DNA from: Candidatus Levilactobacillus faecigallinarum
GTDB lineage: Bacteria; Bacillota; Bacilli; Lactobacillales; Lactobacillaceae
Reading direction: 5' to 3'
Assembly (NCBI GenBank): GCA_019113985.1
Contig: DXGJ01000009.1
Span: 1 to 64,000 of the forward strand
Length of the DNA stretch: 64,000 nt
A model generated the notes under the pieces. The model saw only the letters and a list, made by a program, of their open reading frames with translations. It had not been told where the DNA came from and searched no databases. Shown here in pieces: positions 2,857 to 43,651 of this stretch. Each line of letters starts with the position of its first letter. Within the stretch, counting starts at the first letter, position 1. The position numbers and the translations under genes were made by a program.

Positions 2857-2885
2857 TTAACAAAGTTTCAAATTTAATGTATACT
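2857..2885 (+). promoter_or_regulatory. Promoter of the first S-layer gene
   Basis: TTAACA (2857-2862), a 17-bp spacer and TATACT (2880-2885) lie about 48 bases upstream of the ATG, giving a short leader that ends in GGAGGA (2919-2924). Confidence 0.65.
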
Positions 2886-2932: not shown

Positions 2933-4429
2933 ATGCAATCAAGTTTAAAGAAATCCCTTTATTTGGGTCTTGCTGCATTAAGCTTCGGTGCCGTTGCTGC
3001 AACGAGCACTAATGCTTCTGCAAAGTCCTATGCTAAGGCCGGCGCTTACACGACCTTGAAGTCAGACGCTACTACTCGTAACGTTGAAGCTACTGGTACT
3101 AATGCACTTTACACTAAGCCAGGTACTGTTAAAGGTGCTAAGGTTGTTGCTTCTAAGGCTACTATGGCTAAGTTAGCTTCATCCAAGAAGTCAACTGACT
3201 ACTTCCGTGCATACGGTGTCAAGACCACTGACCGTGGTTCTGTTTACTACCGTGTTGTGACGATGGACCAAAAGTACCGTGGCTACGTTTACGGTGGTAA
3301 GACTACCGATGCGTTTGCTGGTGGTATCAAGTCTGCTAACACGACTACTGCTGCTACTGTTTCTAACGATATCAAGGGTAAGGCAGTTTACTTCACTAAC
3401 CCTGGTACTACGAACGTTACATGGAACGCACCTAAGTTCACTCAATACAAGGCATCCAAGAATGTTAAGAACACCACTCCATTTGTCGGTGATGCTTTAA
3501 CTGTGACTGATGCTGTTACCAAGACTCGTGAAGGCTCACTTTACTACTATGTAAAGGATGCTACTAACCCATCTGCTTCTGGCTGGATTTACAGTAAGGC
3601 TATCACTACTGATGCTAACGTTGTATTTAACCAAGCTAAAGACATCAAGGTTAACTTCACCTTTAACGGTAAGACTGTCAAGACTTCCGTAATGCAAAAC
3701 TTAAAGGCAGATGCTAATGGTGCCCAAGGTACTGTTGCTGCCAACGCTGTTGGTACTGCCGTAGGTTACGATGTACTTGCTAAGGCTACTGCCAACAACG
3801 ACGCATGGTTAACTGCTGCTCTTAGTGGTACTGGTTACACTTACGATGGCACTACTTCAGCAAACAAAGCTGCTTTGCTTGCTGCCAAGACTGGTGACAC
3901 TGTTAACTTGACTGTTACCCAAAACGCTGCTGTTACTACGCCAATTTCTCTGATGAGTGCGGCTACTACTACTACCTCTAATGATGCTAAGGCACTTGTT
4001 CGCGCTACTTCAAGTTCCGTTGCATCTCAATACAGTGTAGTTGTTCCTAGCTTAACTTCCGGCTTTAAGGGTGTTAACGGTGCTCCTTACACGTCTGCAG
4101 ATCTTACCACCTTTGCTGGTAGCAACAACCTGAAGACGTTGTACACGAAGACTATCGGTACTGGTAGTGATGCTTACTACTACGAATACAACTTGACTAG
4201 TGCTACTGCTGGTAACTACAGTGCTACTAAGCCAGCTACGCTTGTATACGTTGGTACTAAGGTTAACGGTACTTCTCCAGCTAAGTTAGCTACTAACGAT
4301 GGTGACTCTGTATGGGGTAATGACACTGATTCATCAGTTGCATCTTCATCAACCGCTACTGCTACTTCATCAACCACTGTTGCTACTTCATCAACGAAAG
4401 CAGCTAGTGAAAGTGTTTCTGGTAAGTAG
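2933..4429 (+). CDS. S-layer protein precursor, L. brevis Slp type (first copy)
   Basis: The 498-residue precursor starts [20 protein letters not shown], a Sec signal peptide cleaved near ASA-KSYA. Residues to about 150 match the conserved N-terminal part of L. brevis Slp proteins ([52 protein letters not shown]), which binds the cell wall; the remainder is the variable assembly region. The protein is Ala/Thr/Ser-rich and lacks cysteine. The last ~35 residues form a Ser/Thr/Ala tail ([14 protein letters not shown]) absent from the second copy. The ATG at 2933 follows GGAGGA; an upstream frame extension to 2894 lacks an SD. Its own promoter and terminator make it monocistronic. Confidence 0.93.
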
Positions 4430-4455
4430 TATAGTTATTTAAAAATAACTTTTTG

Positions 4456-4488
4456 AAAAGAGCGAGCCCATATGGTTCGCTCTTTTTA
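4456..4488 (+). terminator. Terminator of the first S-layer gene
   Basis: AAGAGCGAGCC pairs with GGTTCGCTCTT around a five-base loop and is followed by a T-run. Confidence 0.85.
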
Positions 4489-4579
4489 TTTTCTTAAAAT
4501 GCTTTTTTTAAAGTATGATAAAATTTAGTAGTTATGGTTTTGTATACGTGTTTATATTACATAAATTGAGGTGCGCGTT

Positions 4580-7213
4580 TTGAAGAATAAGGGGAAAAGG
4601 TACCCGACAACAAATAAATTTTGGCTATATTTAATTTCTTTCTTGGTCCCGACTACTTTGATGACTATGTATTTTATAAGTCGTCACATGGCCCCGTTTG
4701 GATCAAGTAGTTTGTTAACTATTGATTTGGGCCAGCAATATATTGATTTTTTTGCTTATTTTCGTCATGCAATATTGCATGATCCTAGTTCGCTGATATA
4801 CTCCTTTTCCAATGGATTAGGTGGGGAAATGATTGGAACTTGGGCTTACTATTTGTTTAGTCCACTTAACTGGATTCTATTATTCTTCCCTGGAACTACA
4901 TTGACATCTGGTATCTTCTTAATGACCGTTGTTAAGTATGGTCTTGCAGGATTAAGCTTCTTTTGGCTAATGCAGAGAACCGTTAGACCACGCTTTTGGT
5001 TATCGTTAACCTTTTCTACAGCATATGCAATGATGGGGTGGACGGTTGCTAATCAATTAAACTTAATGTGGTTGGATGCAGTAATCCTGTTACCTATAAT
5101 TTTTTATGGTTTAACGGAGTTGATTGATAAAGGGAAATGGCGATTGTACGTTGCTTGGTTAACGGCAATGTTGATAATCAATTATTATATGGCATATATG
5201 ATATGCTTTTTCTTAGTTTTATCCTTCATTTGGCTTGTGGCAGACAGATTTACGGACTGGAAAACGATGAAGCAACAATTGCTAAGGTTCATTGTGCGGT
5301 CTACTATTAGTGGCCTTTTAGCATCGACTATTTTATTACCAACGGTTTGGTCACTGGCACAGAGTAAGGCGCAATATACGTTAACCAGTTATAAATGGGA
5401 TTTTGAATATTTTCCACCAGCAATGTTTATCAAATTTTTTATGGGTGTCTTTAACTTTAATCAAATGTTTGCAGGATATCCAAATCTTTTCGTTGGATCG
5501 ATTGTGGTAATTGGTAGTTTCCTATTCTTCTTCAACAAAAATTTTAGCGTTCGTAGCAGAATTGTTGCCGGAATTATTACCTTATTTTATTTTCTTTCTC
5601 TGAGTTTCCGTCCCTTGATACTATTGTGGCATGCAGGACAGTTCCCGACAGGATATACTTTCCGCTTTTCTTTTGTGGTTTGTTTTTGGCTATTCTGGTT
5701 GGCAGCGCAAACGATATCGGAAGAATTTAAACCAACAAAATGGGGAATTATATCGTTTTCTGTGGTTACATTAATCACTTGTTTATATATAGGGGTGAAC
5801 CTCAAAGAATTTAGTGCATTAAAACCACTTCATTTTATTATGGGAATGGTGTTTGTTGTTGTTCTGGCTGTGTTACTTCTTTTACCGATAAGGTGGAAAT
5901 CAAAGTTTGTGGTTGTGTGTGTCATAAGCACTTTAGAGATATTCTTAAATGCTGCCCTGTCTTTAAATGAAATTGGTTATCTTCAGGTGAAAGATTATTC
6001 TCAATATACGAAAGAGTTACAGAGTTTGGTTAGCAGAGTTCAGCGAAACGACTCCAGTTTTTATCGAATTGGTAAAACTTTCTTAAGAGATAATGATGAT
6101 CCCTATCAAGCCAACTTTAATAGTGGTGCGGTTTCTTCTTCGGCGCTAACTAAAGATACAGCAACGTTTATGGGACGATTGGGAAATCCAGATGGAAGTA
6201 TATTTGTTGAGTATAGTAATGGAACTCTAATTAGTGATGCGTTGCTTGATATGAAGTATTACTTCCAACCGAATCAATCAATAGGTATAGAAAGCTATCA
6301 AACTAAGTTGCCCGTCTCCAGTAATAGATTTGATTTATCGGAGTATAAGGAAGTGCATCGTGATAAACAAGCCATAACCTACCGAAATGATTTGGCATTA
6401 CCACTTGGTTATTTAGCAAGTCCAGACGTTATTTCACTAAAAGCTATTGACTCCAATCCAGCTGAGTTTCAAGCAGATTGGTTGTCTGCTTTAACTGGAC
6501 AAGCTAGTTCAAAAACGGTGTTTACTAATCAAAAATTCGATCATACAGAGTTTACTAACATTTATCCAGTGAAAAAATTGAATGGTTCTATGCTTAAGAA
6601 AATAGATAAGAGAAAAGAATCAACGGGTGTTGTAACGACAACGTTTACTCCTAAGCCCAATTCGGTCTACTATATTACATTCGGACCAGATACTAATTTT
6701 AAAGCCGCCAGATTTATTGTGAATGGGACAGAGATTAATGAAAAAAGGGCTTATCGAAATCCAATATTAATAAGTGCATCTGGAAAGGATTCAAATGAAA
6801 CGCAGACGTTGCAAATTCAACTAAATCGTAAATCTATGAAACTTCAAGACTTCAAACTGTATCGTTTAGACCTTGATAAGTATCGAAGTACTATGAAGGA
6901 ATTAAAGAAACACCCTTGGAATTTAACGAAGCATACAAGTCGCTATTTAAGTGGAACTATTACCAGTCCAAGAAGAGGAGATGTTTTAAACACATCTATT
7001 CCATATTCTCAAGGATGGCATGTAAAGTTGAATGGACATTCGGTTAAGACATATAAGACGGTTGATATGTTTACGGCTGTAAAGTTAGATAAGGGTGCTA
7101 ACAAAGTTACGTTTAGTTACTGGCCACCATACTTGAATGTTGGGATAATATTAAGTTCAGTAACTTTAGTGGGATTATCAATAGAAGAATATTTAAGAAA
7201 ACGACAAGATTAA
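4580..7213 (+). CDS. yfhO: YfhO-family membrane glycosyltransferase-like protein
   Basis: This 877-residue protein has about 12-13 membrane spans in the first ~480 residues, a large extracellular domain (~480-850) and a final span before a basic tail. The opening loop after the first span contains LLTIDLGQQYIDFFAYFR, and SNGLGGEMIGTWAYY follows, both typical of YfhO proteins. In B. subtilis and Listeria, YfhO works outside the membrane with a CsbB-type enzyme that makes an undecaprenyl-phosphate sugar, to glycosylate lipoteichoic acid or other surface polymers. A CsbB-like gene is next at 7350. The start is the TTG at 4580, placed correctly after GAGG (4568-4571). The gene is clearly AT-richer than the flanking S-layer genes, suggesting acquisition. 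Confidence 0.88.
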   Translation: MKNKGKRYPTTNKFWLYLISFLVPTTLMTMYFISRHMAPFGSSSLLTIDLGQQYIDFFAYFRHAILHDPSSLIYSFSNGLGGEMIGTWAYYLFSPLNWILLFFPGTTLTSGIFLMTVVKYGLAGLSFFWLMQRTVRPRFWLSLTFSTAYAMMGWTVANQLNLMWLDAVILLPIIFYGLTELIDKGKWRLYVAWLTAMLIINYYMAYMICFFLVLSFIWLVADRFTDWKTMKQQLLRFIVRSTISGLLASTILLPTVWSLAQSKAQYTLTSYKWDFEYFPPAMFIKFFMGVFNFNQMFAGYPNLFVGSIVVIGSFLFFFNKNFSVRSRIVAGIITLFYFLSLSFRPLILLWHAGQFPTGYTFRFSFVVCFWLFWLAAQTISEEFKPTKWGIISFSVVTLITCLYIGVNLKEFSALKPLHFIMGMVFVVVLAVLLLLPIRWKSKFVVVCVISTLEIFLNAALSLNEIGYLQVKDYSQYTKELQSLVSRVQRNDSSFYRIGKTFLRDNDDPYQANFNSGAVSSSALTKDTATFMGRLGNPDGSIFVEYSNGTLISDALLDMKYYFQPNQSIGIESYQTKLPVSSNRFDLSEYKEVHRDKQAITYRNDLALPLGYLASPDVISLKAIDSNPAEFQADWLSALTGQASSKTVFTNQKFDHTEFTNIYPVKKLNGSMLKKIDKRKESTGVVTTTFTPKPNSVYYITFGPDTNFKAARFIVNGTEINEKRAYRNPILISASGKDSNETQTLQIQLNRKSMKLQDFKLYRLDLDKYRSTMKELKKHPWNLTKHTSRYLSGTITSPRRGDVLNTSIPYSQGWHVKLNGHSVKTYKTVDMFTAVKLDKGANKVTFSYWPPYLNVGIILSSVTLVGLSIEEYLRKRQD

Positions 7214-7256
7214 ATAGATGGTTTTTAAGTTTTAAAACTAATTGAATATAAAACAA

Positions 7257-7306
7257 ACGGGTTTCTAATAAATTGACGCTTGATTTATTTAGAAATCCTT
7301 TTTTAT
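7257..7306 (+). terminator. Terminator after the yfhO-like gene
   Basis: A 15-bp near-perfect stem (GGGTTTCTAA arm at 7259, TTAGAAATCC arm near 7289-7298) is followed by six T residues. It separates the yfhO-like gene from the glycosyltransferase at 7350. Confidence 0.85.
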
Positions 7307-7349
7307 AAAATTTAATCCCGGATTTAATTAGGATATGGAGTAATAAATT

Positions 7350-8291
7350 ATGAAAAAATTGAGTATAGTGGTCCCTTGCTACAATGAAGAAGAGTCAGTG
7401 ACGTTATTTTTTAGTACGGTTAAAGAAGTTATTAATAAAATAAACAGTGATAGAAAAGTTATAGTTCCGGAGTACATTTTTATAGATGACGGTTCTTCTG
7501 ATGATACGTTAAAAGAAATAAAAAAATTGAATAAGCAATTTCCAGATGTAGTTCATTATCAGTCATTTTCTCGTAACTTTGGAAAAGAGTCAGCGCTATT
7601 TTCAGGTCTTGAAAAGTCTACAGGGGATTATGTTGTTGTTATGGATGTGGACTTACAGGATCCGCCGGAATTATTATCTAAAATGCTAAGTCTAATTCAG
7701 AACTCGGATTATGATTGTGTTGGGACTATTCAGAAAGAACGTCTTGGTCAGAGTAAACTTAGAGCATTTTTATCGTCTAGCTTTTATAAAGTGGTTAATA
7801 AGGTGTCGGATGTTTACATCGAGCCTAATGCACGAGACTATAGGATAATGACAAGGAAGTTTGTAAACGAAGTGTTGGCGTTACCTGAATTTAATAGATT
7901 CTCTAAGGGAATATTTAGTTGGGTTGGGTTTAAAACAACTTATATAACTTATGAGAGTCAGCCTCGTGTGGCTGGAAAAACGCATTGGAGCTTACAACAA
8001 TTGTTTGCATACTCTATCGAAGGGATTATTGATTTCTCTGATGTACCATTAAAATTAGCAACATGGGTTGGAAGCATTTCATTTATTTTATCGATTTTGG
8101 GATTGATATTCGTTATTGTAAGAGCCCTTACCGTGGGAGGATCTGCGGCGGGATGGCCTTCTCTAGTTGTGATAATTTTGTTGGTTGGTGGAATTCAATT
8201 GTTTTGTTTAGGCATATTAGGCCAGTATATTAGTAAGATATATTTAGAAACTAAACATAGACCGATATATATTGTGCGGGAAGATGCCTAA
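7350..8291 (+). CDS. Family 2 polyprenyl-phosphate glycosyltransferase (CsbB/GtrB type)
   Basis: The 313-residue protein has an N-terminal GT-A domain starting KLSIVVPCYNEEES, a nucleotide-sugar motif (IDDGSSDDT), the metal-binding region DVDLQDPPE and, after ~residue 230, two membrane spans. This is the architecture of GtrB, CsbB and DPM1-like enzymes, which transfer a sugar from a nucleotide donor to undecaprenyl phosphate on the cytoplasmic face. The lipid-linked sugar is the expected donor for the YfhO-like protein encoded just upstream. A flippase would be needed and none is visible in this pair. Like its neighbour the gene is AT-rich. An SD (GGAG, 7335-7338) lies 11 bases before the ATG. 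Confidence 0.9.
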   Translation: MKKLSIVVPCYNEEESVTLFFSTVKEVINKINSDRKVIVPEYIFIDDGSSDDTLKEIKKLNKQFPDVVHYQSFSRNFGKESALFSGLEKSTGDYVVVMDVDLQDPPELLSKMLSLIQNSDYDCVGTIQKERLGQSKLRAFLSSSFYKVVNKVSDVYIEPNARDYRIMTRKFVNEVLALPEFNRFSKGIFSWVGFKTTYITYESQPRVAGKTHWSLQQLFAYSIEGIIDFSDVPLKLATWVGSISFILSILGLIFVIVRALTVGGSAAGWPSLVVIILLVGGIQLFCLGILGQYISKIYLETKHRPIYIVREDA

Positions 8292-8807
8292 TAAATTAGG
8301 AGAATTGAAGATAAATGTATTGGATAGTGATTAAGTAGGCGATGTTTTTTCGACTGTGTATGTTCAAGAATAATGATGGTATCAGGCACTTAAACTAGCG
8401 TTAAGATTAACCGTGTATATTATGAGGTACTCCAAACATAATAACTTGACTGTACTTAAGAAGGCCCCATTCCTGTAGTCGGAATGGGGCCTTTACTTTT
8501 TAGCTGGCTAAGTCTTTACTGAATTATTACAGAAACGAAACAATTTAAGAAATCGTTAAGGCTAAATGGGGGATTTGCATAATTTACAGAGTATGTGAAT
8601 CGCTCGTGATGGTAATCGTTATCCTGCTTTAAAACAGCGAGATGGTCGACTAACACTAAATCAGCGATTAACGGGTGGATATTTTTGTGATAGAAACCTT
8701 AAACATGTTAAGACTTTATGACTTATCGTTTTAGGGAGGAATTCTTTGATATACTGATTGCGTTCTCAGGAATTACAATTTTTTACTTTCGAAGGAGATC
8801 ATACATT
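8292..8807. other. 516-base intergenic stretch before the second S-layer gene
   Basis: It holds the terminator at 8461-8501 and a likely -10 element (TATACT, 8750-8755) for the second S-layer gene, without a clear -35. No protein gene is evident. Confidence 0.6.
8461..8501 (+). terminator. Terminator after the GtrB-like gene
   Basis: A perfect 11-bp GC-rich stem (8463-8473 with 8481-8491) is followed by TTTACTTTTT. Confidence 0.85.
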
Positions 8808-10199
8808 ATGCAATCAAGTTTAAAGAAATCTCTATACTTAGGCTTAGCTGCATTAAGCTTTGGCGCCGTTGCAACGGTATCCACCACTGCTTCCGCTAAA
8901 TCTTATGCCACTGCTGGTGCCTATTCAACATTAACTACTGACGCAACGACTCGTAACGTTGAAGCCACTGGGACTAACGCACTCTACACCAAGCCAGGGA
9001 CTGTTAAGGGTGCCAAGGTGGTTGCTTCTAAGGCCACGATGGCAACGTTAGCTTCATCCAAGAAGTCCGCTAACTACTTCCGGGCTTACGGTGTGAAGAC
9101 CACGAACCGTGGTTCCGTTTACTACCGTGTTGTTTCAATGGATGGCAAGTACCGTGGTTACGTTTACGGTGGTAAGACTTCTGGCACCTTCGCTGGTGGT
9201 ATCAAGTCTGCTGACACGACCACGACGGCAACTACGCCAACTAAGACGACTGGTTACTACCTGAAGGATGTTACCAAGAACACCCTGTGGACGGCACCTA
9301 AATACACCCAATACAAGGCAAGCAAGGTTAGCCTGTACGGTGTAAGCTCAACTGACAAGTTTACGGTTGATTCCGCCGCTACTAAGACGCGTGAAGGCTC
9401 CCTGTACTATCACGTAACTGACGCGAACAACACCAAGATTAGTGGTTGGATCTACGCTGGTAAGGGATACGATGCTTCTGCAACGACCCAAGACTTGGGT
9501 GGCCTGTCATTGACCATGTCTGATGCTTCCGCAACCTCCGACAACAGTGTTAAGGTCGTTTACCGTGACGCAAGCAAGACGCAAGTAAGTACCGCTACTT
9601 GGATTACCTCTGCATCTGACACCAAGGCCGGTGCTACCGTCGCAACCACGGCCACTAACGCTGCCGGAACGACTTTAGCTGACTTCGTAACAAACTCACT
9701 GCCTTCTGGCTACGCTACTTCTGGCACGGTTGACACGAGCTCTGCAGAATACGGCAACACGGTTTATGTTGATGTTGTCTCTGCCGCAACTTCTAAGGTT
9801 CAGTTAGTTGCTGACACCGTTGACAACACGGCTTCGACTAGCGACAACGCTGTATCAAGCACGTTATCCGATGGCGCAAAGCTGTCCTCCAGTGATCTCT
9901 CCGCAACGTTAAGCGCTGCTGGTGTTAAGGCTTTGACTGGGACCAAGGGTGACACGATTGGCGCAACTAACTTGAGCACGATCTCTGACGCCTTTGGGAC
10001 TGCCAGCATCACTGGCACCAAGACTTACTACGCCGCTGACGGTACGGCTTACCACTACGAATTCACTTATGAACCAACGAACTTCACTAGTGATAACCGG
10101 ACGGCCACTTACGGTGACACGTTGACCGCTAGCTTTAAGGCTGTCTTGACTAAGGGTGCTCCTAGCGCATCTTCATCTGACACGACTTGGATTGCTTAA
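8808..10199 (+). CDS. S-layer protein precursor, L. brevis Slp type (second copy)
   Basis: The 463-residue precursor shares the signal peptide and N-terminal wall-binding region of the first copy almost residue for residue to about residue 145, then diverges into a different variable region. It contains [20 protein letters not shown] and [12 protein letters not shown], close to the best-known L. brevis SlpA sequence as I recall it. It ends in [11 protein letters not shown] without the long Ser/Thr tail of the first copy. The ATG at 8808 follows GAAGGAGAT (8791-8799). The two copies are in direct orientation about 5.9 kb apart. Confidence 0.93.
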
Positions 10200-11778: not shown

Positions 11779-12585
11779 ATGAACAAGAAGGTAAGCAGTA
11801 TCTTACTCGCCAGTGCATTGATGTTAGGGTCATTTGTACCGGTCGTTGCCAATGCGGATGGCTTAAGTGGGAAGACGCAAAGCGAAATTACGTTTGCTAA
11901 GCCAGACGCCAACATTGATCCAGTTGACCCAGAAAACCCAGGAACTACCGATCCAGGTAACCCTGGTGGGACTGAACCTGGTGGGGACTTAACGTTTATC
12001 TACGTTTCCCCTTCCATGAAGTTCGGGACGGCCGCAACAGAATCTGACGGCACGTTAACCAAGGATAGCGATGGCAAGTTGACCATCGGAACCATCAAAG
12101 ATGGTGGCCTGGTAAACGCTATCGAAACGACGGCCAATGCCAAGACCTACTATCCAGTTGTTACGACCCGTGACTTGGGTGCCACGAAGGACAACCCAAA
12201 CCTGGTTACCGAAGTTTCTGATACTCGTGGGACCAACGCCGGTTGGACTATCAGTGTTTCCGCTGACGCCATGGTTAGTGGCTCTAACTCCTTGGAAGGT
12301 GCTACCTTGAGTTTAGGTGGTTCAACGGCCACCATCAAGAACTCCGCTAAGACGGATGGTACCGATGCAGGGATTACTGGTAAAGACCAACAGATTACCT
12401 TACCCGGCACGGGGGCTTCTAGCTCTGCCACCATCTACTCAGCTAAGCCTGAATCTGGTGTCCTGAACACGGCCTTCCAATTAGCACCAGAAAACATTAA
12501 ATTAAGCAATATTCCTGCAAACGTTAAGGCCGGGACTTACTCCGGTAACGTTAACTGGACGTTAAGCGATACGCCAGGTGCATAG
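11779..12585 (+). CDS. WxL-domain cell-surface protein (first of operon)
   Basis: The 268-residue precursor has a signal peptide (MNKKVSSILLASALMLGSFV, cleavage near ANA-DG), a Pro/Gly/Asp/Glu spacer around residues 50-72 and a C-terminal WxL domain. The two hallmark sites are visible: GWTISV near residue 158 and NWTLSDTP at the C-terminus. WxL domains bind peptidoglycan non-covalently. It is the first gene of a WxL cluster with a DUF916/DUF3324 protein, an LPxTG protein and a second WxL protein, the standard set for a surface complex. A partial terminator at 12603-12638 may lower expression of the later genes relative to this one. Confidence 0.93.
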   Translation: MNKKVSSILLASALMLGSFVPVVANADGLSGKTQSEITFAKPDANIDPVDPENPGTTDPGNPGGTEPGGDLTFIYVSPSMKFGTAATESDGTLTKDSDGKLTIGTIKDGGLVNAIETTANAKTYYPVVTTRDLGATKDNPNLVTEVSDTRGTNAGWTISVSADAMVSGSNSLEGATLSLGGSTATIKNSAKTDGTDAGITGKDQQITLPGTGASSSATIYSAKPESGVLNTAFQLAPENIKLSNIPANVKAGTYSGNVNWTLSDTPGA

Positions 12586-12602
12586 GAATCTTTATGGTGG
12601 GG

Positions 12603-12638
12603 AAGGTGTTCATTCTGTATAAAATGAGCGCCTTTTTC
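12603..12638 (+). terminator. Intra-operon terminator/attenuator after the first WxL gene
   Basis: A 10-bp stem with G-T pairs (12603-12612 with 12624-12633) ends in five T residues, 18 bases after the first WxL stop. Confidence 0.65.
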
Positions 12639-12694
12639 GCTTTACATATTCGGTGTATGATTGCCGTAGAATCTATTTTGTAGTCAGGGGTGTC

Positions 12695-13753
12695 ATGATG
12701 CGAGGATTGGGAAAGTTTCAAGTTATCTTTTTGATGGTTATCGGTGTCGTTCTAGGGTGGGGAACGTCGGTGTCGGCACAGGCAGCGGCTAATGATATTG
12801 GGTATAGTGTTGCGGCTAAACTACCCAAGAATCAGATGAATAAGAAAAATTCGTTTTTTGACTTGAGAATGAAGTCCCAGCAACAAGAACAGCTACAAGT
12901 TCGCGTTTACAACCTCACGAATCAGGACATTCAGGTCGAATCAGCCATTCACACGGCGTGGACTAGCGAGAACGGAGCCATCGAGTACGTGACACCAACG
13001 AAGTCCTACGATGCCTCGCTTCGCTACAAGATGAGTGATATTAGTAAAATTCAGGGTAAAAAGACCCTTACGATTCCTGCCAAGGGGTCCAAGTTGGTGA
13101 CTGCCAACGTTAAGATGCCCAAGACTACGTTTAACGGCGTAATTCTAGGTGGCTGGTACTTCAAACGTGTCGATAGTAAGGTCACGGGAACGGTCAAGGG
13201 TGCTGGTAACATGCGGAACCAGTATTCTTACGTCATTGGCATGAAGTACACCATGGGCAAGGTTCCTTACCCGGCGATGAGCCTGGGGAAGGTCTCTGCT
13301 GGTCTGGATAATGCTCACCGTGGGGTTGTTGCGAACCTGCGCAACACCTCGGCTGTGATTATCCCGAACCTAACCACGAACACCACCATTACCAATCGGG
13401 ATGGTGGGAGCGTGGTCAAACACGAAAAGAAAGAAAACGTGCAAATGGCGCCAAACACGACGTTCAAATACACGTTACGTTATGGGAAAACGGAACTGAA
13501 GGCGGGCAACTACCATCTGCATATGGTTGCCAAGAATACCGATCGAAGCTGGACGTTTGACCGGGACTTTACAATCACCAAGGCTCAAGCCGATAAGTAT
13601 AATCAGGCGACGGTCGAAAATTCCGGCATTAACATTTGGTTGTTGGTCGCATTAGGCGCCTTGGGTATGCTGTTACTGATTCTGTTAATTCTGCTGGTTA
13701 TTTACCTGATTCGGCGGAAGCGGCGGGAAAATGACGATAAAGATGAGGATTAG
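12695..13753 (+). CDS. DUF916/DUF3324 WxL-locus membrane-anchored protein
   Basis: The 352-residue protein has a signal peptide, two beta-sandwich domains (DUF916 about residues 35-160, with YSVAAKLPKNQ and FFDLRM; DUF3324 about 165-300, with GVILGGWYF), then a membrane span (LLVALGALGMLLLILLILL) and a basic cytosolic tail. Family members interact with WxL proteins and can bind host or peptidoglycan ligands. Two adjacent ATGs exist (12695 and 12698) behind AGGGG; the second has slightly better spacing. Operon position is typical. Confidence 0.92.
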   Translation: MMRGLGKFQVIFLMVIGVVLGWGTSVSAQAAANDIGYSVAAKLPKNQMNKKNSFFDLRMKSQQQEQLQVRVYNLTNQDIQVESAIHTAWTSENGAIEYVTPTKSYDASLRYKMSDISKIQGKKTLTIPAKGSKLVTANVKMPKTTFNGVILGGWYFKRVDSKVTGTVKGAGNMRNQYSYVIGMKYTMGKVPYPAMSLGKVSAGLDNAHRGVVANLRNTSAVIIPNLTTNTTITNRDGGSVVKHEKKENVQMAPNTTFKYTLRYGKTELKAGNYHLHMVAKNTDRSWTFDRDFTITKAQADKYNQATVENSGINIWLLVALGALGMLLLILLILLVIYLIRRKRRENDDKDED

Positions 13754-35891: not shown

Positions 35892-35954
35892 GGTGGTCAG
35901 ATAGCCGGGCGTCATGCTGGTTCGGCTATGAATTCATTTTTAGGGGGAGTTTTC

Positions 35955-36551
35955 ATGAAACGTGTTTTAGGTTATGTTTTAGGCTTAGTCGCCGCCTTAT
36001 CGTTGGCTGGTGCAGCAGCCACGACGGCCAACGCTGATGGCGGCGCTGCCAATGCTGGGAGTGGTCAAGCCGTTACGGGGTCTCCTCGTACGGATACCGA
36101 CGCCAACGAGCCGCAAGGCGGTGGGGCTACCGGTACCCTGGTTGTACCGAATACCGACTCATCCAGTGTTGCATCTTCATCCAGCGAGAGTTCTGCCAGC
36201 AGCAGTAGTTCTGCATCTTCGTCGTCAGTAGCGCCAACCAAGCCCGAAAAACCAAGCAAGAAGCCTGGTAAGGTAGTTGCTAATGGCAAGAAGATGCGTG
36301 GGGAGAAGCACTACCGGAAGAACAGCACGGTGATTCTGTTCCAGAAGGGCCGCAAGGGTGCCAGCGTGGTTCTGCGGAACCGCAAGGGCCAGTTCGTCGA
36401 GAAGTTTAGCGTTAAGAAGAGCGGCCGCTTCAGTATCAAACTTAGCAAGAAGGCCGCTTTGAAGTTAAGCAAGTTCGGCAAGAACTTTACCTTCACGGTT
36501 TCTCAGAAGGGCTTCAAGACCTACACCATCAAGTACTTAATCTTCAAGTAA
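35955..36551 (+). CDS. Secreted Ser-rich/basic-domain protein A
   Basis: The 198-residue precursor has a signal peptide (MKRVLGYVLGLVAALSLAGA, cleavage near ANA-DG), an acidic Gly-rich segment, a Ser-rich tract (about residues 75-100, with repeated SSASSSS), a KPxK spacer and a C-terminal basic domain of about 80 residues. That domain (YRKNSTVILFQKGRKG, VKKSGRFSIKLSKK, QKGFKTYTIK) is shared with proteins B (38788) and C (39504). The fold looks Ig-like. The ATG at 35955 follows AGGGGGAG. It is monocistronic, next to a GT-C glycosyltransferase, so the Ser tract may be O-glycosylated (inference). Confidence 0.85.
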   Translation: MKRVLGYVLGLVAALSLAGAAATTANADGGAANAGSGQAVTGSPRTDTDANEPQGGGATGTLVVPNTDSSSVASSSSESSASSSSSASSSSVAPTKPEKPSKKPGKVVANGKKMRGEKHYRKNSTVILFQKGRKGASVVLRNRKGQFVEKFSVKKSGRFSIKLSKKAALKLSKFGKNFTFTVSQKGFKTYTIKYLIFK

Positions 36552-36575
36552 GGCTGTTATCAGCTCGGATACAAA

Positions 36576-36609
36576 CGGGGGCGTCGTCGTTGGGCGAGGC
36601 TCCTTTTTG
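36576..36609 (+). terminator. Terminator of gene A
   Basis: GGGGCGTCG pairs with CGAGGCTCC at eight of nine positions, followed by TTTTT. Confidence 0.75.
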
Positions 36610-36684
36610 TTGGGCCCGTTTCCATAAACAAGCTTATTGCAACTTGGTCGCTGGCAAGGGTTGTGACGCGCATCGGGACGGGGG

Positions 36685-36913
36685 ACTTGGTATACTGAGA
36701 GGGTCTTGAAAATTCAGAAATCACGAGGACGGTGGCCCGACTTCACGGTGGTTACGGCCGCGGATACGGCGCGGGCTACCGTGAAGGGATAGAAGTTACC
36801 GGTATTTTTGGATTTACTCTTGTACTCGAACTCGTTTTAAGGGAGACTTATTAATGGTTTTATTCGTTGCGGCAACGTAACGTTTGGGGTTCGAGACAAG
36901 GGGGAATACAGAT
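36685..36913 (+). promoter_or_regulatory. Promoter and long leader with hairpin and mini-ORF before the first GT-C gene
   Basis: An extended -10 (TTGGTATACT, ending 36696) is followed by a perfect CTTCACGGT/ACCGTGAAG hairpin (36739-36787) and an eight-codon frame (36854-36880, MVLFVAAT) with its own SD GGGAG. The glycosyltransferase SD AGGGGGA lies 19 bases after this frame. Confidence 0.5.
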
Positions 36914-38563
36914 TTGAGAGAGAAATTAAGACTTTGGTTTGGTAGCCACGATGCACAATATATTGGGTTGCTGGCCATCGTCGGGTGTGTTCTGATGGCG
37001 TTTTGTTCATACACCTCACCCGCGTTTTATTTTGATTATTCACCGGACAACAACGCTTTCTTCACCGTGGGAAAGGCCATGATGCACGGCATTGTGCCGT
37101 ACCGGGACATCTTTGAGCAGAAGGGGCCGTACGTGTACTTCTTGCACGGGCTGGCCTACCTGGTGGCCCAGCGAAGCTTCATTTTTATCTTCGTGATGGA
37201 GATCATTGCGTTGGTCGCGGCCATGACGCTGACCTATTATTTGGCACGACGGTTACGCCTCACGGAGTTGGGGAGCTTCGTGGCAGCCCTGCTGTCACCG
37301 GTACTGTTTTTGTACCACCCCTATTACGATTACGGAGATACGGTCGAGTTTTTTGTGGTGCCGTTGTTGCTATCGTTGGTGTACTTGATTGTATTGCTGG
37401 ATCAACGGGGGATGCGGGTCAATCGCTGGTGGTTCTTCAGTCAGGGCCTATTCGTGGGCGTCGTGTTTCTGTCGAAGTATACCCTGTTGGGTGCCTGGAT
37501 TGCCTTTTACCTGGTCCTAGGAATCTACTTAGCGGTGAAGCGAAATTGGCTGATACTCCGACGCGTTATTTTGACCAGCGGGGCAGGCTTTCTGGTAGCC
37601 GTACTCCCTTGGCTGATTTACTTTTTAATGAATCACGCACTGACGGCCTTTTTTCGGGTCTATATCGTGTTCAACACCCACGCCTACGTGGCGTCGACGG
37701 TCTCGGCCTTTTCCAAACTGATTCAGTCCGCGATTTTACTCGCGCAATTTTACCTAGGGGACGTTCTATTCTTCGTCCTGGGGTTGGTTGGAACTTTGAT
37801 TATCTTGTACCGGACGGATATTCTCCAACGTCGCTTCACCAAGGCACTGTACTTGGTGACCTTCCTCTTGGGTGACTTATTCGCGGTATATGGCTATCAG
37901 ACCAATACGGTCTACCAGTATTATCAGTTAGCCTATTTTCCCTTTTTTGTGGTGCCATTCGTCTATTTCCTGGGGCGCTTGTTCCGGCGGGCGAACCTGA
38001 GAACCTACGACGATGCGTTCGTTATCTTGGGTACCATCATCCTGAGCCTGTTTCTGGTCCTGGGGGTCAACGATAACGTTGAGGAGTCGCGACTCTTCCC
38101 CAACAACGCCTCGGTCACGTTATCCCATACGCGTAAGCCACAGCGGCCGGCCCAGACGATTTTTGGCCAGCTGATGCGGTCCAAGACACCGGCAGATCAA
38201 CCGATGACGTTGCTAAACTATGGGTCAATCGATATGGGTTTCTACACCAGTTCTGGTGCGGTTCCCAGTGAATACTATTTCCAGAACTATAACGTCCCGC
38301 AGTCCGCCGCACCCCAGATTTTACGGGATCAAAAGCGAGCGATTGCCCAGAAACGGGTCGAATGGGTGGTCCTGAACACGCCGTCGGGACGCAGCGTGCG
38401 GGGCTGGCGGGCCCACAATCATGGCCGAATCGGTAACGGAAACTTGAATCCGGGAACGGCCGGGATTGCGAAGTCGTTGTATCATAATTATCGGCGAGTT
38501 GCCAAGCATAGCCAGCGGTTTGAGAACACCAACGTGACTTACTGGTTATTCCAGCGAAAGTAG
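36914..38563 (+). CDS. GT-C membrane glycosyltransferase (GT39/PMT_2-like), copy 1
   Basis: The 549-residue protein has about 11 membrane spans followed by a soluble domain from ~410. The first external loop holds FDYSPDNNAFFTVGKAMMHGIVPYRDIFEQKGPYVY cut into its key parts: the D-x-N pair and the conserved YRDIFEQKGP block, as in GT39/PMT_2-type enzymes that use polyprenyl-phosphate sugars outside the membrane. The start is TTG 36914, eight bases after AGGGGGA. It is a full-length paralogue of 40252. Its acceptor is unknown; the neighbouring secreted Ser-rich proteins are candidates. Confidence 0.83.
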   Translation: MREKLRLWFGSHDAQYIGLLAIVGCVLMAFCSYTSPAFYFDYSPDNNAFFTVGKAMMHGIVPYRDIFEQKGPYVYFLHGLAYLVAQRSFIFIFVMEIIALVAAMTLTYYLARRLRLTELGSFVAALLSPVLFLYHPYYDYGDTVEFFVVPLLLSLVYLIVLLDQRGMRVNRWWFFSQGLFVGVVFLSKYTLLGAWIAFYLVLGIYLAVKRNWLILRRVILTSGAGFLVAVLPWLIYFLMNHALTAFFRVYIVFNTHAYVASTVSAFSKLIQSAILLAQFYLGDVLFFVLGLVGTLIILYRTDILQRRFTKALYLVTFLLGDLFAVYGYQTNTVYQYYQLAYFPFFVVPFVYFLGRLFRRANLRTYDDAFVILGTIILSLFLVLGVNDNVEESRLFPNNASVTLSHTRKPQRPAQTIFGQLMRSKTPADQPMTLLNYGSIDMGFYTSSGAVPSEYYFQNYNVPQSAAPQILRDQKRAIAQKRVEWVVLNTPSGRSVRGWRAHNHGRIGNGNLNPGTAGIAKSLYHNYRRVAKHSQRFENTNVTYWLFQRK

Positions 38564-38678
38564 CGGCCGGGGAACCGGGAAAAGCGACCGAAGTTCGGGA
38601 CGCGCTTGCTGGGTGAACGCCTGATTTTCAGCAAGGTTAAAGAACCTGAAAATAACGATACTTTGCAACCGTGTAGCC

Positions 38679-38707
38679 TTGACACCGGTTACCCAAGCAC
38701 CTAGAAT
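38679..38707 (+). promoter_or_regulatory. Promoter of secreted-protein gene B
   Basis: TTGACA (38679-38684), 17-bp spacer, TAGAAT (38702-38707). Confidence 0.8.
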
Positions 38708-38787
38708 AAGTAGGTGAATTGTTTGGTTAAGAAATTAATTAAGCAATCCCAAAATAACAGATTCGTCTGTAGGGGGATTTTGGAACC

Positions 38788-39246
38788 ATGAAAAAAGTAT
38801 TTAGTTATGTTTTAGCTTTAGTTGCTGTTTTAACGTTCGGTGGGGCCATTGCGACCACGGCTAACGCTGCCGGTGGCAATGCCGTCGCAACCAGTGCCAG
38901 TGGTGTGAGTGGGGTGGCAACGTCATCTTCTAGCGTCAAGGCACCAGCGAAGAAGGCAACCAAGAAGGTCGCTAAGAAGAGCCAAATCAAGCTCGCCAAG
39001 AAGTACCGGAAGAACGCCAAGAAGGTTGTCTTCAATAAAGGCCGTAAGGGTTCTAAGGTCACGCTGAAGAACAACAAGAAGCAAACGGTCAAGAGCTACT
39101 CCGTTAAGAAGAACGGCAAGTTCACCGTTAAATTAAGCAAGAAGCAGGTTAAGAAGTTGAACAAGAAGAACGCCAAGTCCTTCAAGGCTTCCGTTGCCCA
39201 AAAGGGTTACAAGACCTACACCATTACGGCTAAAATCTCCAAGTAA
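38788..39246 (+). CDS. Secreted basic-domain protein B
   Basis: The 152-residue precursor has a signal peptide (MKKVFSYVLALVAVLTFGGA, cleavage near ANA-AG), a short Ser/Ala region and a very Lys-rich C-terminal domain: KYRKNAKKVVFNKGRKGSK, SVKKNGKFTVKLSKKQ, QKGYKTYTI, clearly related to proteins A and C. It has the shortest Ser tract of the three. High positive charge suggests binding to teichoic acids or other anionic wall polymers (inference). SD: AGGGGGAT. Followed by a strong terminator. Confidence 0.85.
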   Translation: MKKVFSYVLALVAVLTFGGAIATTANAAGGNAVATSASGVSGVATSSSSVKAPAKKATKKVAKKSQIKLAKKYRKNAKKVVFNKGRKGSKVTLKNNKKQTVKSYSVKKNGKFTVKLSKKQVKKLNKKNAKSFKASVAQKGYKTYTITAKISK

Positions 39247-39267
39247 TTAGGTAGTCGTTGATAAATT

Positions 39268-39311
39268 AGAGTAGTGCGAGAATGGTCTATCCTTCTCGCA
39301 CTACTTTTTAG
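39268..39311 (+). terminator. Terminator of gene B
   Basis: AGTAGTGCGAGAA pairs with TTCTCGCACTACT, then TTTT. Confidence 0.88.
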
Positions 39312-39404
39312 TATGCCAAGGAGTTGGGATATCATGTCGCTAAAAGGTTAATGCTAATGATATTTTGAAATTAGGAAGGTTAGCTTTCATAAAACCGTGC
39401 ATTC

Positions 39405-39433
39405 TTGACAGCGGCCGGGTCGGTTCCTAGAAT
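39405..39433 (+). promoter_or_regulatory. Promoter of secreted-protein gene C
   Basis: TTGACA (39405-39410), 17-bp spacer ending GGTTCC, TAGAAT (39428-39433). The region just downstream (GATAGCCGG) also matches promoter A. Confidence 0.8.
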
Positions 39434-39503
39434 GGGGCCTTGAAGATAGCCGGAAATCAGCGGCCGTCCGATTTTAAATGGTTTTAACTTAGGGGGAGTT
39501 TTT

Positions 39504-40097
39504 ATGAACAGAATCTTAGGATACGCAGCTGCCCTCATCGCAGCCTTATCTTTAGGGGGATTTGCCGCAACGTCCGCGCGGGCCGATGGCAACGCGGCGA
39601 CGGCTGCCAGTGGCACCCGGAGTAGCAGTGTTTCAACTGGGGATACGGACACAACACCGGCCAACACGGATTACGTGGCCGTAGCAAGCTCCGATAGCAG
39701 TAGTAGTGTTGCCAGCGCCAGCAGCAGTAGCACGGCCGCACCAACCGCGAGTCGCAAGACGCCACGGCGAGCGAAGAAGTCTAAGCGAGTGGCGACTAAG
39801 CGCCGTCGAGCGACTGCTAAGCGGACCGTTGCCCGGAAAGCTCGGGTCAGCGAGTTACGTTACCGCAAGGATGCTCGGGTGGTTCGCTTCGGCAAAGGTC
39901 GCAAAGGCGAAGTCGTTACGTTACGGAATCGCCGCGGGCAGGTCGTCAAGAAGTTTGACGTTCGCCGTAGCGGTAAGTTCGACATTCGCTTGACGCGCAA
40001 GCAGGCCTTTAAGCTCGACCGGGGTGGCAAGTACTTTGACGTCACCGTCTCACGGAAAGGCTTCAAGCCGTACACCGTTAAGGAAACTATTTTTTAG
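39504..40097 (+). CDS. Secreted Ser-rich/basic-domain protein C
   Basis: The 197-residue precursor has a signal peptide (MNRILGYAAALIAALSLGGF, cleavage near ARA-DG), Ser-rich stretches (SSDSSSSVASASSSS), an Arg/Lys-rich linker (about residues 80-115) and the shared C-terminal domain (YRKDARVVRFGKGRKGE, VRRSGKFDIRLTRKQ, RKGFKPYTVK). In this copy Lys is largely replaced by Arg, so the family has diverged while charge is kept. SD AGGGGGAG. It directly precedes the second GT-C gene. Confidence 0.85.
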   Translation: MNRILGYAAALIAALSLGGFAATSARADGNAATAASGTRSSSVSTGDTDTTPANTDYVAVASSDSSSSVASASSSSTAAPTASRKTPRRAKKSKRVATKRRRATAKRTVARKARVSELRYRKDARVVRFGKGRKGEVVTLRNRRGQVVKKFDVRRSGKFDIRLTRKQAFKLDRGGKYFDVTVSRKGFKPYTVKETIF

Positions 40098-40132
40098 ACG
40101 TTGAATAAGTGGCAATCGCGAGTTTGTGGTTA

Positions 40133-40161
40133 TTAAGGTGATCGTGTGATCGCCTTTTTTG
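40133..40161 (+). terminator. Terminator of gene C
   Basis: AAGGTGATC pairs with GATCGCCTT around GTGT, followed by T residues. Confidence 0.75.
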
Positions 40162-40174
40162 TTTGGCTAAATTG

Positions 40175-40204
40175 TTGTCGCCGCTTAGCCACTGACCCTA
40201 TAAT
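40175..40204 (+). promoter_or_regulatory. Promoter of the second GT-C gene and its partner
   Basis: TTGTCG (40175-40180), 18-bp spacer, TATAAT (40199-40204). Confidence 0.6.
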
Positions 40205-40251
40205 CGCCCCAATGACTAGGGGGATTTCAACAAGAAAGTGGGGGAGGGCCC

Positions 40252-41907
40252 GTGGCCTTTAAAGCATGGTTTCAGCATCATCAGCGTGAGCTCCAGTATT
40301 TGGCACTATTCAGCATGATGGGGGTCGCTATCATGTTGGTCTGTTCGTACACGTCGCCAGCTTTTTACTTTGACTATTCACCGGACAATAACGCCTTCTT
40401 CAGTGTCGGCAAGGCCATGATGAACGGCAAGGTCCTGTACCGGGACATCTTCGAGCAGAAGGGCCCATACATCTACTTACTCCACGGGTTGGCCTACTTG
40501 GTCTCGTCGCGGAGCTTCTTCCTGGTCTACCTCTGGGAGGTCGTGACACTGGTGGCGTCAATGTTTCTGAGCTACCGCATCGCGACTCGGATTCTACGGC
40601 AACCGCAGGCGCTGCTGGTTGGCATTCTGTCACCAGCCCTGTTTCTCTACCACCCGTACTACGACTACGGGGACACTGCAGAATTCTTTGCACTGCCGTT
40701 GATTTTATCGCTCATTTACCTCATCCTACTGCTGGCTGAACGGCGCTTCCACGTGAGTTCGTGGTGGTTCTTCGCTCAGGGGGTGTTTGTGGGGGTTGAA
40801 TTCTTATCCAAATACACGTTATTAGGTTCGTGGATTGCCTTTTACCTCTTCATCGGCGTCTATCTGATCAAGCAGCGAGAGTGGGCCACGTTGCGCCGGG
40901 TAGTGGTGTGGAGTGCCGGGGGCTTTCTGCTGGCAACGGTGCCGTGGTTACTGTATTTCTGGCTGAATCACGCGATGCGGAGCTTTCTTTACGTTTACTT
41001 CTTCTTCAACACCCATGTTTATCTGACGTCGTCGGTCTCGTTTTTCTCTAACCTGGTGCAATCTACTAGCTTACTGGCCAGTTTCTTCCTATCGGGTGTG
41101 GTATTCTTTACCTTGGGCCTTTTGGGGACGCTGGTGATTATCTTCCGGCACGACGTTTTAAAGGACAACTTCGCGCGGGTCTTGTACCTGGTGGTCTTTC
41201 TCAGTAACGACATCCTGGCGCTGTACGGGTACAGTAGCGGTAACGTCTTTCAGTATTACCAGCTGATTTACTTCCCGTTTTTTGTCTTGCCGTTCGTTTA
41301 CTTCTGCAAGTTCTGCTTTAACCGGCGCACCATCAAAAAGGATGACGATACGTTGACGATTCTGACGGCGATTCTGATGAGCTTTTTCCTGGTCCTCGGC
41401 GTCAACAATAACTTCACCAGCTCACGGTTGTTTCCCAATAACGCGTCCGTCACGGACTTGCATACCAAGCGGCCCCAGGAACCGGCCCAAACGGAATTTG
41501 GGAACATCATGCGCCAGCGGACCCACGGGAAAATCACACTACTGAACTACGGCTCGATTGACATGGGCTTTTATACCGCGGCTGGTGCCGTACCAACGCT
41601 GTACTATTTCCAAAACTACAACATTCCGACTCAAAGCGACCCAACTATTCTTAACACGCAATTGGCGGCTATTCGGCAGCGACGCGTCGAGTGGGTGGTC
41701 CTGAACACGCCGTTGGGGAAACGGCCGGCGACTTGGCGGGGGAACCAATACCAGGTCGGTCAGATTTCGGGCGGCAACCTGAACCCGGGAACGGCCCGGA
41801 TGAGTGGGCTACTCTACCGTAATTACCGGTTGGTCGCGGTCCACACCCAGAGTTTCGAGAACGTCAACGTGAGTTACTGGTTATTTCAGCGAAAATCAGC
41901 GGATTAG
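40252..41907 (+). CDS. GT-C membrane glycosyltransferase (GT39/PMT_2-like), copy 2
   Basis: The 551-residue protein parallels copy 1 (36914) along its whole length, including FDYSPDNNAFFSVGKAMM, LYRDIFEQKGPYIY, the FLYHPYYDYGDT loop, and the C-terminal LLNYGSIDMGFYT and VEWVVLNTP blocks. About 11 spans are predicted, then a soluble domain. It should transfer a sugar from a polyprenyl-phosphate donor on the outer face. GTG start behind GGGGGAGGG. The PTPS-related membrane gene follows 31 bases later in the same unit. Confidence 0.83.
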   Translation: MAFKAWFQHHQRELQYLALFSMMGVAIMLVCSYTSPAFYFDYSPDNNAFFSVGKAMMNGKVLYRDIFEQKGPYIYLLHGLAYLVSSRSFFLVYLWEVVTLVASMFLSYRIATRILRQPQALLVGILSPALFLYHPYYDYGDTAEFFALPLILSLIYLILLLAERRFHVSSWWFFAQGVFVGVEFLSKYTLLGSWIAFYLFIGVYLIKQREWATLRRVVVWSAGGFLLATVPWLLYFWLNHAMRSFLYVYFFFNTHVYLTSSVSFFSNLVQSTSLLASFFLSGVVFFTLGLLGTLVIIFRHDVLKDNFARVLYLVVFLSNDILALYGYSSGNVFQYYQLIYFPFFVLPFVYFCKFCFNRRTIKKDDDTLTILTAILMSFFLVLGVNNNFTSSRLFPNNASVTDLHTKRPQEPAQTEFGNIMRQRTHGKITLLNYGSIDMGFYTAAGAVPTLYYFQNYNIPTQSDPTILNTQLAAIRQRRVEWVVLNTPLGKRPATWRGNQYQVGQISGGNLNPGTARMSGLLYRNYRLVAVHTQSFENVNVSYWLFQRKSAD

Positions 41908-41938: not shown

Positions 41939-43651
41939 ATGGGAGAACGATTACGCGGGTTTTTAACCCGGTATTGGTGGCAGGTTGAGGGAGTGACCTT
42001 CCTACTACTGAGTATTTTATGGATTTTACCCTGGGGATTCTCAGGCAAGCTGTACGTGGGGGATGACCTGGCCTTCCACCTGAACCGGATTCAGGGGTTG
42101 ACCGCGGCATTCAAGGCCAGCGGCAACTGGTTTCAGATTCCGGCCGTGGCGACCGGGGCGTTCAGCGCCTGGGGGTATCCCATCAACCTCTTTTACCCGG
42201 CAACGGCCTTGATTCCAGCGGCCTGGCTCCAGGCAGTGGCTCCGGGGATCGGTGGGTATTACGTCTTCTTGGTTTTCCTGAATTTTGCGACCCTCGGGAT
42301 TGCCGCCGTCGTGGCGTACCAACTCTTGCAGAGCCGCGGTCAGGCTTTCCTGGTCGCTGTTATCTACAGCTTCGCCCAGTACCGTTTTCTAGACTTCTTC
42401 GTTCGGGGGGCGCTAGCGGAGGGCATCGTCTTCACTTTTCTGCCTATCGTTTTCTACGGTCTCTATTGTCTGACCGTGGGCGATTATCGCAAATGGTACT
42501 GGCTGGCCATCGGGATGGCGTTGATTGCCCTGACCCACGTGATTTCGTTGGCGTTAAGCGCCGTGGGCGTGGTGGTCATGCTCAGTATGTGGGGACTATC
42601 CCGGACCGAGCCGTGGCGGCGACTGCGAAATCTGGGATTTGCCACGGTGCTGGCGGTGGGACTCTCAGCCGGGTTCCTGGGACCGTTGGCCGAACAACTG
42701 GTGCACGTGGGTAAGCTGGGAGTCGCCCAGTACAGTCTGGCCCAGAGTGCAGCGCAGCTCGGCGACCTTTTCAGTAACTCGCTGGACAACGCGACGGCCT
42801 CCAACCAGATCAACTTCGGCGTGGTTGCGTTGTTACTGACGGTGGCGGCACTCTTTGCCTGGAAACAGTTGACGGCGTTTGACCGGTATTGTCTGGGCCT
42901 GAGTTGGTTCTTCATTTTCTTGGGAACCAACCTCTTTCCTTGGCAGCTGTTCCAGGGACTCCTGGGCAACATCCAATTTCCCTGGCGCTTCCTGGCGTTG
43001 GCGGTCTTCCCACTTGCGTTAGTGGGGGCGCGTTCACTGATTCTGCTAGCCCACGCGCGGACCTTTAACCGTAAGTTCTGGACAGTCGCCGTGGCGAGTC
43101 TAGCCGTGGTGGGCATCGCACTCGGTACCAGCGAGCGCCTGTACCATCAGGTTGGTTTGGGCCAGAACAAAATTGTGACCAATGCCAGTTACCTGCAAAA
43201 TGCGACGACGGATACCACCACGGACTATGTGGCCCAGCGGGGGCAAGTCTCAATGGCGGCAGTCCGGACGCACTCGGTACCGGTGATGAATACCCAGACC
43301 AACGGGCAACAGCTGGCGGACTTACAGCAGCAGACTGAACAATCGCTGGCCAATGGCCTAAGCTTTCACCTAACCAGCGCCGTACCGCAGCGCATTAAGC
43401 TGCCGGAACTGGCCTACGCGGGATATCACGTCTACGTTAACGGGCGGCAACAGACGCCGACGTTGGACGCTAATGGGGTGGTGCACATCAAGGTTGCGGC
43501 GGGCGCTTCACAGGTTCGCTACGTTTATCAACCAACGGTCGTCCAAATCCTGAGTGGCTGGGTGGCCGCGTTGAGTTGGCTGGGTCTGCTGGGAACGCTG
43601 GGTTGGCGCCGTTATCACCGGTCAACGTCAACGGTCACCAAGACCTTGTAA
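41939..43651 (+). CDS. PTPS-related multi-span membrane protein, probable glycosyltransferase
   Basis: The 570-residue protein has about 12 spans (to ~residue 400), an external domain and a last span near 535-555. The first loop contains GDDLAFHLNRIQGL, with an acidic pair as in GT-C enzymes, and the layout matches the PTPS_related (PF10131) family, often found with surface polysaccharide or lipid-sugar genes. It is in an operon with copy 2. A GGGGGAG SD precedes the ATG. Confidence 0.75.
   Translation: MGERLRGFLTRYWWQVEGVTFLLLSILWILPWGFSGKLYVGDDLAFHLNRIQGLTAAFKASGNWFQIPAVATGAFSAWGYPINLFYPATALIPAAWLQAVAPGIGGYYVFLVFLNFATLGIAAVVAYQLLQSRGQAFLVAVIYSFAQYRFLDFFVRGALAEGIVFTFLPIVFYGLYCLTVGDYRKWYWLAIGMALIALTHVISLALSAVGVVVMLSMWGLSRTEPWRRLRNLGFATVLAVGLSAGFLGPLAEQLVHVGKLGVAQYSLAQSAAQLGDLFSNSLDNATASNQINFGVVALLLTVAALFAWKQLTAFDRYCLGLSWFFIFLGTNLFPWQLFQGLLGNIQFPWRFLALAVFPLALVGARSLILLAHARTFNRKFWTVAVASLAVVGIALGTSERLYHQVGLGQNKIVTNASYLQNATTDTTTDYVAQRGQVSMAAVRTHSVPVMNTQTNGQQLADLQQQTEQSLANGLSFHLTSAVPQRIKLPELAYAGYHVYVNGRQQTPTLDANGVVHIKVAAGASQVRYVYQPTVVQILSGWVAALSWLGLLGTLGWRRYHRSTSTVTKTL

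Follow-up and report, generated by a model that had tools for sequence, protein, structure and literature searches.

We judge it somewhat probable that three neighboring genes of a Levilactobacillus genome, slp1, yfhO, and GT2, form a lipid-linked O-glycosylation cassette dedicated to an S-layer protein, in which the membrane glycosyltransferase YfhO would modify the Ser/Thr-rich C-terminal tail of Slp1. The evidence comes mainly from the recurrence of YfhO genes beside tailed S-layer genes across the genus, together with the predicted functions of the encoded enzymes.

Organization of the locus

The locus lies in a stretch of 64,000 nucleotides (hereafter the window) from a Levilactobacillus genome that is 72% complete. 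Rechecked open reading frame positions place slp1, yfhO, GT2, and a second S-layer gene, slp2, consecutively on the + strand, all four intact. The original prediction of an AT-rich pair, YfhO-like and CsbB/GtrB-like, between two S-layer genes of the same direction is thus confirmed, with the pair at 35–36% GC. slp1 (2933..4429, + strand, ATG at 2933) encodes a 498 aa member of the L. brevis SlpA family of S-layer proteins, which has a signal peptide and, in its N-terminal part, a pair of wall-binding repeats; this conserved wall-binding region carries the YFRAYG motif, described for SlpA in PMC2571106. A promoter-like site 5′ of slp1 (TTAACA-17-TATACT, 2857..2885, + strand) was found by consensus scan and is a candidate only, as a consensus match is itself no proof of function. 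The yfhO gene (4580..7213, + strand) begins at a TTG codon at 4580 preceded by GAGGTG and encodes a predicted 877 aa GT-C membrane glycosyltransferase. GT2 (7350..8291, + strand), of the csbB/gtrB/pgfS type, encodes a predicted polyprenyl-phosphate glycosyltransferase of 313 aa and is an AT-rich paralogue of the core copy. slp2 (8808..10199, + strand, ATG at 8808) encodes 463 aa, lacks a Ser/Thr extension, and ends in SDTTWIA.

Terminator-like hairpins with T runs lie on the + strand in the slp1/yfhO gap (4454..4488, z −6.8), in the yfhO/GT2 gap (7259..7298, AT-rich, z −3.9), and 3′ of GT2 (8460..8494, z −4.8). Because they separate all four genes, the row is no simple operon: the cassette originally pictured stands as a gene row but not as a tight transcription unit. 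The slp1–yfhO hairpin has a counterpart at the equivalent place in all three other slp–yfhO loci that we found (see below). Both glycosyltransferase genes are AT-rich relative to their own homologues and not merely relative to their neighbors, yfhO having 35.9% GC (48.9–59.1% in core Levilactobacillus yfhO) and GT2 35.1% (45–57% in core GT2).

Slp1 differs from typical SlpA-type proteins of the genus at its C-terminus. These proteins end 12–23 residues past a TSP-like anchor (e.g., in NTGNSIFG), whereas Slp1 continues for 36 Ser/Thr-rich residues beyond the corresponding SVWG and hence beyond the canonical Slp end (4319..4426, + strand); this extension is the proposed acceptor region. The Ser/Thr/Ala tail is as the original prediction described it: the TSPA anchor is followed by 48 residues, of which 22 are Ser or Thr. 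The SASSAS sequon is absent from Slp1. The structure model of Slp1 (pLDDT 41) is too poor for placing the tail.

Predicted enzymes and proposed mechanism

The YfhO protein matches PF09586 with 808.6 bits (cut-off 28.5) over positions 1–835 of the 835-position model and retains 101 of 109 family-conserved residues. Its AlphaFold model (pLDDT 82.6) contains a beta-rich domain in the C-terminal part, and Foldseek comparison with the PDB matched the model to AftD (E = 1.9e-8) and ArnT (E = 6.5e-5), as well as to AftA and Emb. The model places YfhO in the GT-C fold class, with matches that are polyprenyl-phosphate-dependent GT-C enzymes. GT2 matches Glycos_transf_2 (PF00535) with 91 bits and, over residues 3–310, the GtrB protein sll0501 (5ekp; E = 1.6e-74). 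The gene for a GtrA flippase is on a different contig, unlinked to the cassette (G000:C38:12925-13278, E = 1.3e-24); such a gene is found in this genome and in all 36 examined. The window genome therefore encodes the GT-A, GT-C, and GtrA components of the CsbB/GtrA/YfhO three-component system.

From these components we infer an activity, a sugar donor, an acceptor, and a topology for the cassette. GT2 would load undecaprenyl phosphate with a single sugar, taken from a nucleotide sugar, at the inner side of the membrane, and the GtrA flippase encoded elsewhere in the genome would turn the resulting Und-P-sugar outward. YfhO, with its catalytic loop and beta domain predicted to lie outside, would then pass the sugar to Ser or Thr residues of the Slp1 tail during export. 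The yfhO gene would be expressed either when transcription reads through the slp1 terminator or from a promoter of its own.

Association of YfhO with tailed S-layer genes

To compare the locus with related strains, we read the neighborhoods of ∼113 distinct slp genes in 36 Levilactobacillus genomes; several of these genes are at contig ends, with neighbors out of view. In four cases, an slp gene is followed on the same strand, after a gap of 77–154 nt, by a gene for a ∼880 aa YfhO: the window, L. fuyuanensis, L. hammesii, and L. brevis CD0817. All four slp genes encode a C-terminal Ser/Thr-rich extension, with tails of 41–53 residues after the TSP anchor that contain 22, 31, 27, and 18 Ser or Thr, respectively. 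A comparable tail occurs in just one of the ∼109 remaining slp genes, that of genome G025 (36 residues, 15 Ser/Thr), which has no adjoining YfhO and lies on a contig of 5.3 kb. This gene (L110, G025:C40, 1764-3296, − strand) encodes a Thr-rich-tailed Slp, and the next gene is another slp. Tail and YfhO linkage are associated with a Fisher p of 8e-7, a value that is uncorrected, ignores relatedness, and uses a tail definition made after the loci had been seen. A tree of Slp sequences with tails removed requires two changes for YfhO linkage and three for the tail; the two independent contrasts are concordant but too few for significance. With only two independent pairs, we do not claim that the link is independent of phylogeny.

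The linked YfhO proteins of the four species share 47–67% identity and are intact. The recurrence of ∼880 aa YfhO beside tailed slp genes in relatives points to the tail as the place of sugar attachment, and it strengthens the earlier proposal, made from gene placement, that S-layer proteins may be glycosylated here; overall, we regard that proposal as partly supported. Longer YfhO proteins (1007–1031 aa) are encoded near tail-less slp genes in genomes G024 and G013, which weakens any strict rule that joins tail and YfhO. The coupling to S-layer genes that was originally ascribed to the enzyme pair holds for YfhO but not for GT2, which is slp-linked only in the window and in G024 (beside a different slp and in a different order). 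Among the other genomes, including the three further tailed ones, GT2 is not slp-linked, and the core GT2 lies at a different place.

One further locus was considered as a third case and set aside. In G274, a genome of another genus (probably Lentilactobacillus, judged by its Slps), an 880 aa YfhO adjoins a 615 aa Slp-like protein with a Ser/Thr-rich end, and further slp genes are near (L223, G274:C1, 2480-10364). A similar-ended homologue has no YfhO in the stretch read, so the locus is suggestive only.

Relationship of linked and core YfhO

Phylogenetic analysis groups the other three linked YfhO copies in a clade (100/100) inside Levilactobacillus, with the window copy outside all Levilactobacillus copies, linked and core (94/89). 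The window copy forms a long branch and its place in the tree is therefore unsure; the AU test does not reject a single clade for all linked YfhO (p 0.10). If the tree is taken as it stands, the position of the window copy suggests that slp and YfhO may have become linked on two occasions, each accompanied by a tail. A search of plasmid records found no close YfhO (best match 37%).

The setting of core YfhO is conserved: greA, udk, and mltG flank it to one side, and its opposite neighbor is a divergent PBP-like gene (all named from sequence). We dropped an initial assignment of this divergent neighbor as LtaS, which would have tied core YfhO to LTA, as it reads as PBP-like. The L. fuyuanensis, L. 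hammesii, and L. brevis CD0817 genomes have core YfhO too, so the slp-linked copy there is an extra one. In the window genome, the contig with the PBP-like gene stops exactly where core yfhO would start, so we do not claim the linked gene as the sole copy there.

Comparison with known glycosylation systems

The nearest experimental parallel is the Pgf system of Streptococcus mutans (PgfS, PgfM1, PgfE, and PgfM2, with the substrates Cnm and WapA). There, pgfS and pgfM1 lie downstream of cnm, the cnm–pgfS terminator is read through, Cnm modification depends on pgfS and pgfM1, and the Thr-rich region of Cnm is the predicted glycosylation site (PMC5856776). The window locus likewise combines a PgfS-type GT2 and a YfhO-family membrane protein with a surface-protein gene directly upstream, slp1, which is separated by a terminator and encodes a Ser/Thr-rich predicted acceptor. 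Unlike Pgf, its putative substrate is an S-layer protein rather than an LPXTG adhesin, the gene order is substrate–YfhO–GT2, there is one YfhO in place of PgfM1 and PgfM2, and no epimerase is clustered with them (no PgfE-type sugar epimerase ORF between window positions 1 and 13000). The best NCBIfam matches of GT2 and YfhO are PgfS and PgfM1, both below the curated cut-offs that define equivalogs (PgfS, 297 of 500 bits; PgfM1, 459 of 1400; PgfM2, 399 of 1500). Given these scores and the lack of a clustered epimerase, we do not assign the locus to the Pgf system.

The CsbB/GtcA/YfhO systems of Bacillus subtilis, Staphylococcus aureus, and Listeria share the Und-P-sugar synthase (GT-A), the GtrA flippase, and the YfhO GT-C enzyme. 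Their known acceptors are LTA or WTA, whereas here the GT-C gene adjoins a tailed S-layer gene and the flippase gene is unlinked. Lentilactobacillus buchneri SlpB and L. kefiri Slp belong to a homologous S-layer family and contain a low-complexity Ser-rich stretch; glycosylation of these S-layers has been suggested to occur outside the cell (PMC5796085). The sequon of SlpB (SSASSASSA) is in an internal linker, in contrast to the C-terminal tail of Slp1, and SASSAS-sequon Slps in three genomes of the same genus as G274 likewise have the motif inside an internal linker. No glycosyltransferase gene lies beside these three SASSAS-type slp genes (L264, L265, and L266 in G259, G313, and G164). The likeness to L. 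buchneri that was originally proposed is thus one of composition, not of locus. L. brevis SlpA, SlpB, SlpC, and SlpD share the YFRAYG wall-binding region and multiple slp copies with the window genome; the available portions of the sources on these proteins describe neither a Ser/Thr extension nor adjoining glycosyltransferase genes.

Other candidate glycosylation loci

Two further units occupy window positions 35928-41907 (+ strand), each a gene for a small secreted Ser-rich protein followed by a PMT_2-type GT-C gene (35928-36551 and 36884-38563 in unit 1; 39504-40097 and 40252-41907 in unit 2, all on the + strand). Of 29 homologous loci across the genus, 23 have such a secreted protein encoded 5′ of the PMT_2 gene, which makes this combination a second candidate substrate–enzyme pair. 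Next to the PMT_2 genes, positions 41939-43651 (+ strand) encode a 570 aa membrane protein that weakly matches the C-terminal part of YfhO (E = 8e-4, below the cut-off). csbB-type GT2 paralogues lie beside WxL/DUF916-like surface-protein genes on another contig of the window genome (L134, G000:C38, 5446-9107) and in G024 (L109, G024:C6, 563-5212). A WxL gene is also found 3′ of slp2 (11779-13753).

Alternative explanations

The main rival to an S-layer acceptor is that the pair adds sugar to a secondary polymer of the wall, namely LTA, WTA, or the SlpA-binding polysaccharide of L. brevis, and so tunes anchoring of the S-layer without modifying its protein. We rank it first among the alternatives because characterized CsbB/YfhO systems act on LTA or WTA (PMC8035078) and because it is a non-teichoic wall polysaccharide to which the N-terminal half of L. 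brevis SlpA binds (PMC2571106); the presence in G024 and G013 of YfhO genes close to slp genes that lack a tail also fits. Such a role would leave unexplained why a ∼880 aa YfhO recurs beside Slps that are extended at the end opposite the wall-binding half, and the three other tailed genomes already have core YfhO, the likelier polymer enzyme. On balance, we consider it plausible but rather unlikely.

It is less probable still that AT-rich surface-glycan genes landed by chance in recombination-prone slp loci with many repeated genes and are functionally unconnected to Slp1. Most Levilactobacillus genomes have multiple slp copies in variable order, the pair is compositionally foreign, and terminators intervene between the genes, all of which would suit such hitchhiking. 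Chance does not readily account for a tailed slp directly 5′ of yfhO, on the same strand and at 77–154 nt, in four species, nor for YfhO proteins that have diverged and yet remain intact with family-conserved residues kept. We give very little credence to a third possibility, that the tail stays unmodified as a low-complexity spacer and that YfhO has its acceptor elsewhere, e.g., among the Ser-rich secreted or WxL proteins of the region. Genes for both protein types are within the window, and GT2 paralogues adjoin WxL-type genes in this genome and in G024, but the Ser-rich secreted proteins have adjoining PMT_2-type GT-C genes of their own. Modification of the Slp1 tail by YfhO remains our preferred reading.

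Implications

Glycosylated S-layer proteins of lactobacilli are recognized by host lectins (PMC6607945). A review leaves the enzymes of the L. buchneri pathway unnamed and calls the L. kefir pathway unexplored (PMC5796085), and our literature search for work joining YfhO, lactobacilli, and the S-layer found none beyond a review of oral bacteria. A YfhO gene beside a tailed slp supplies both a candidate enzyme and a candidate acceptor site, making the question directly testable in matched strains (L. hammesii DSM 16381, L. fuyuanensis 244-4, and L. brevis CD0817, with tail-less relatives). If the proposed transfer to Slp1 is correct, it would add an S-layer protein to the acceptors of YfhO-type GT-C enzymes. 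More tentatively, we conjecture that, on two or more occasions, the general envelope machinery supplied a YfhO paralogue to the position directly 3′ of the main S-layer gene, with gain of a Ser/Thr tail as the O-glycosylation acceptor, creating a substrate–enzyme module in S-layered lactobacilli. Were this so, the S-layer glycan could be changed by swapping one or two genes.
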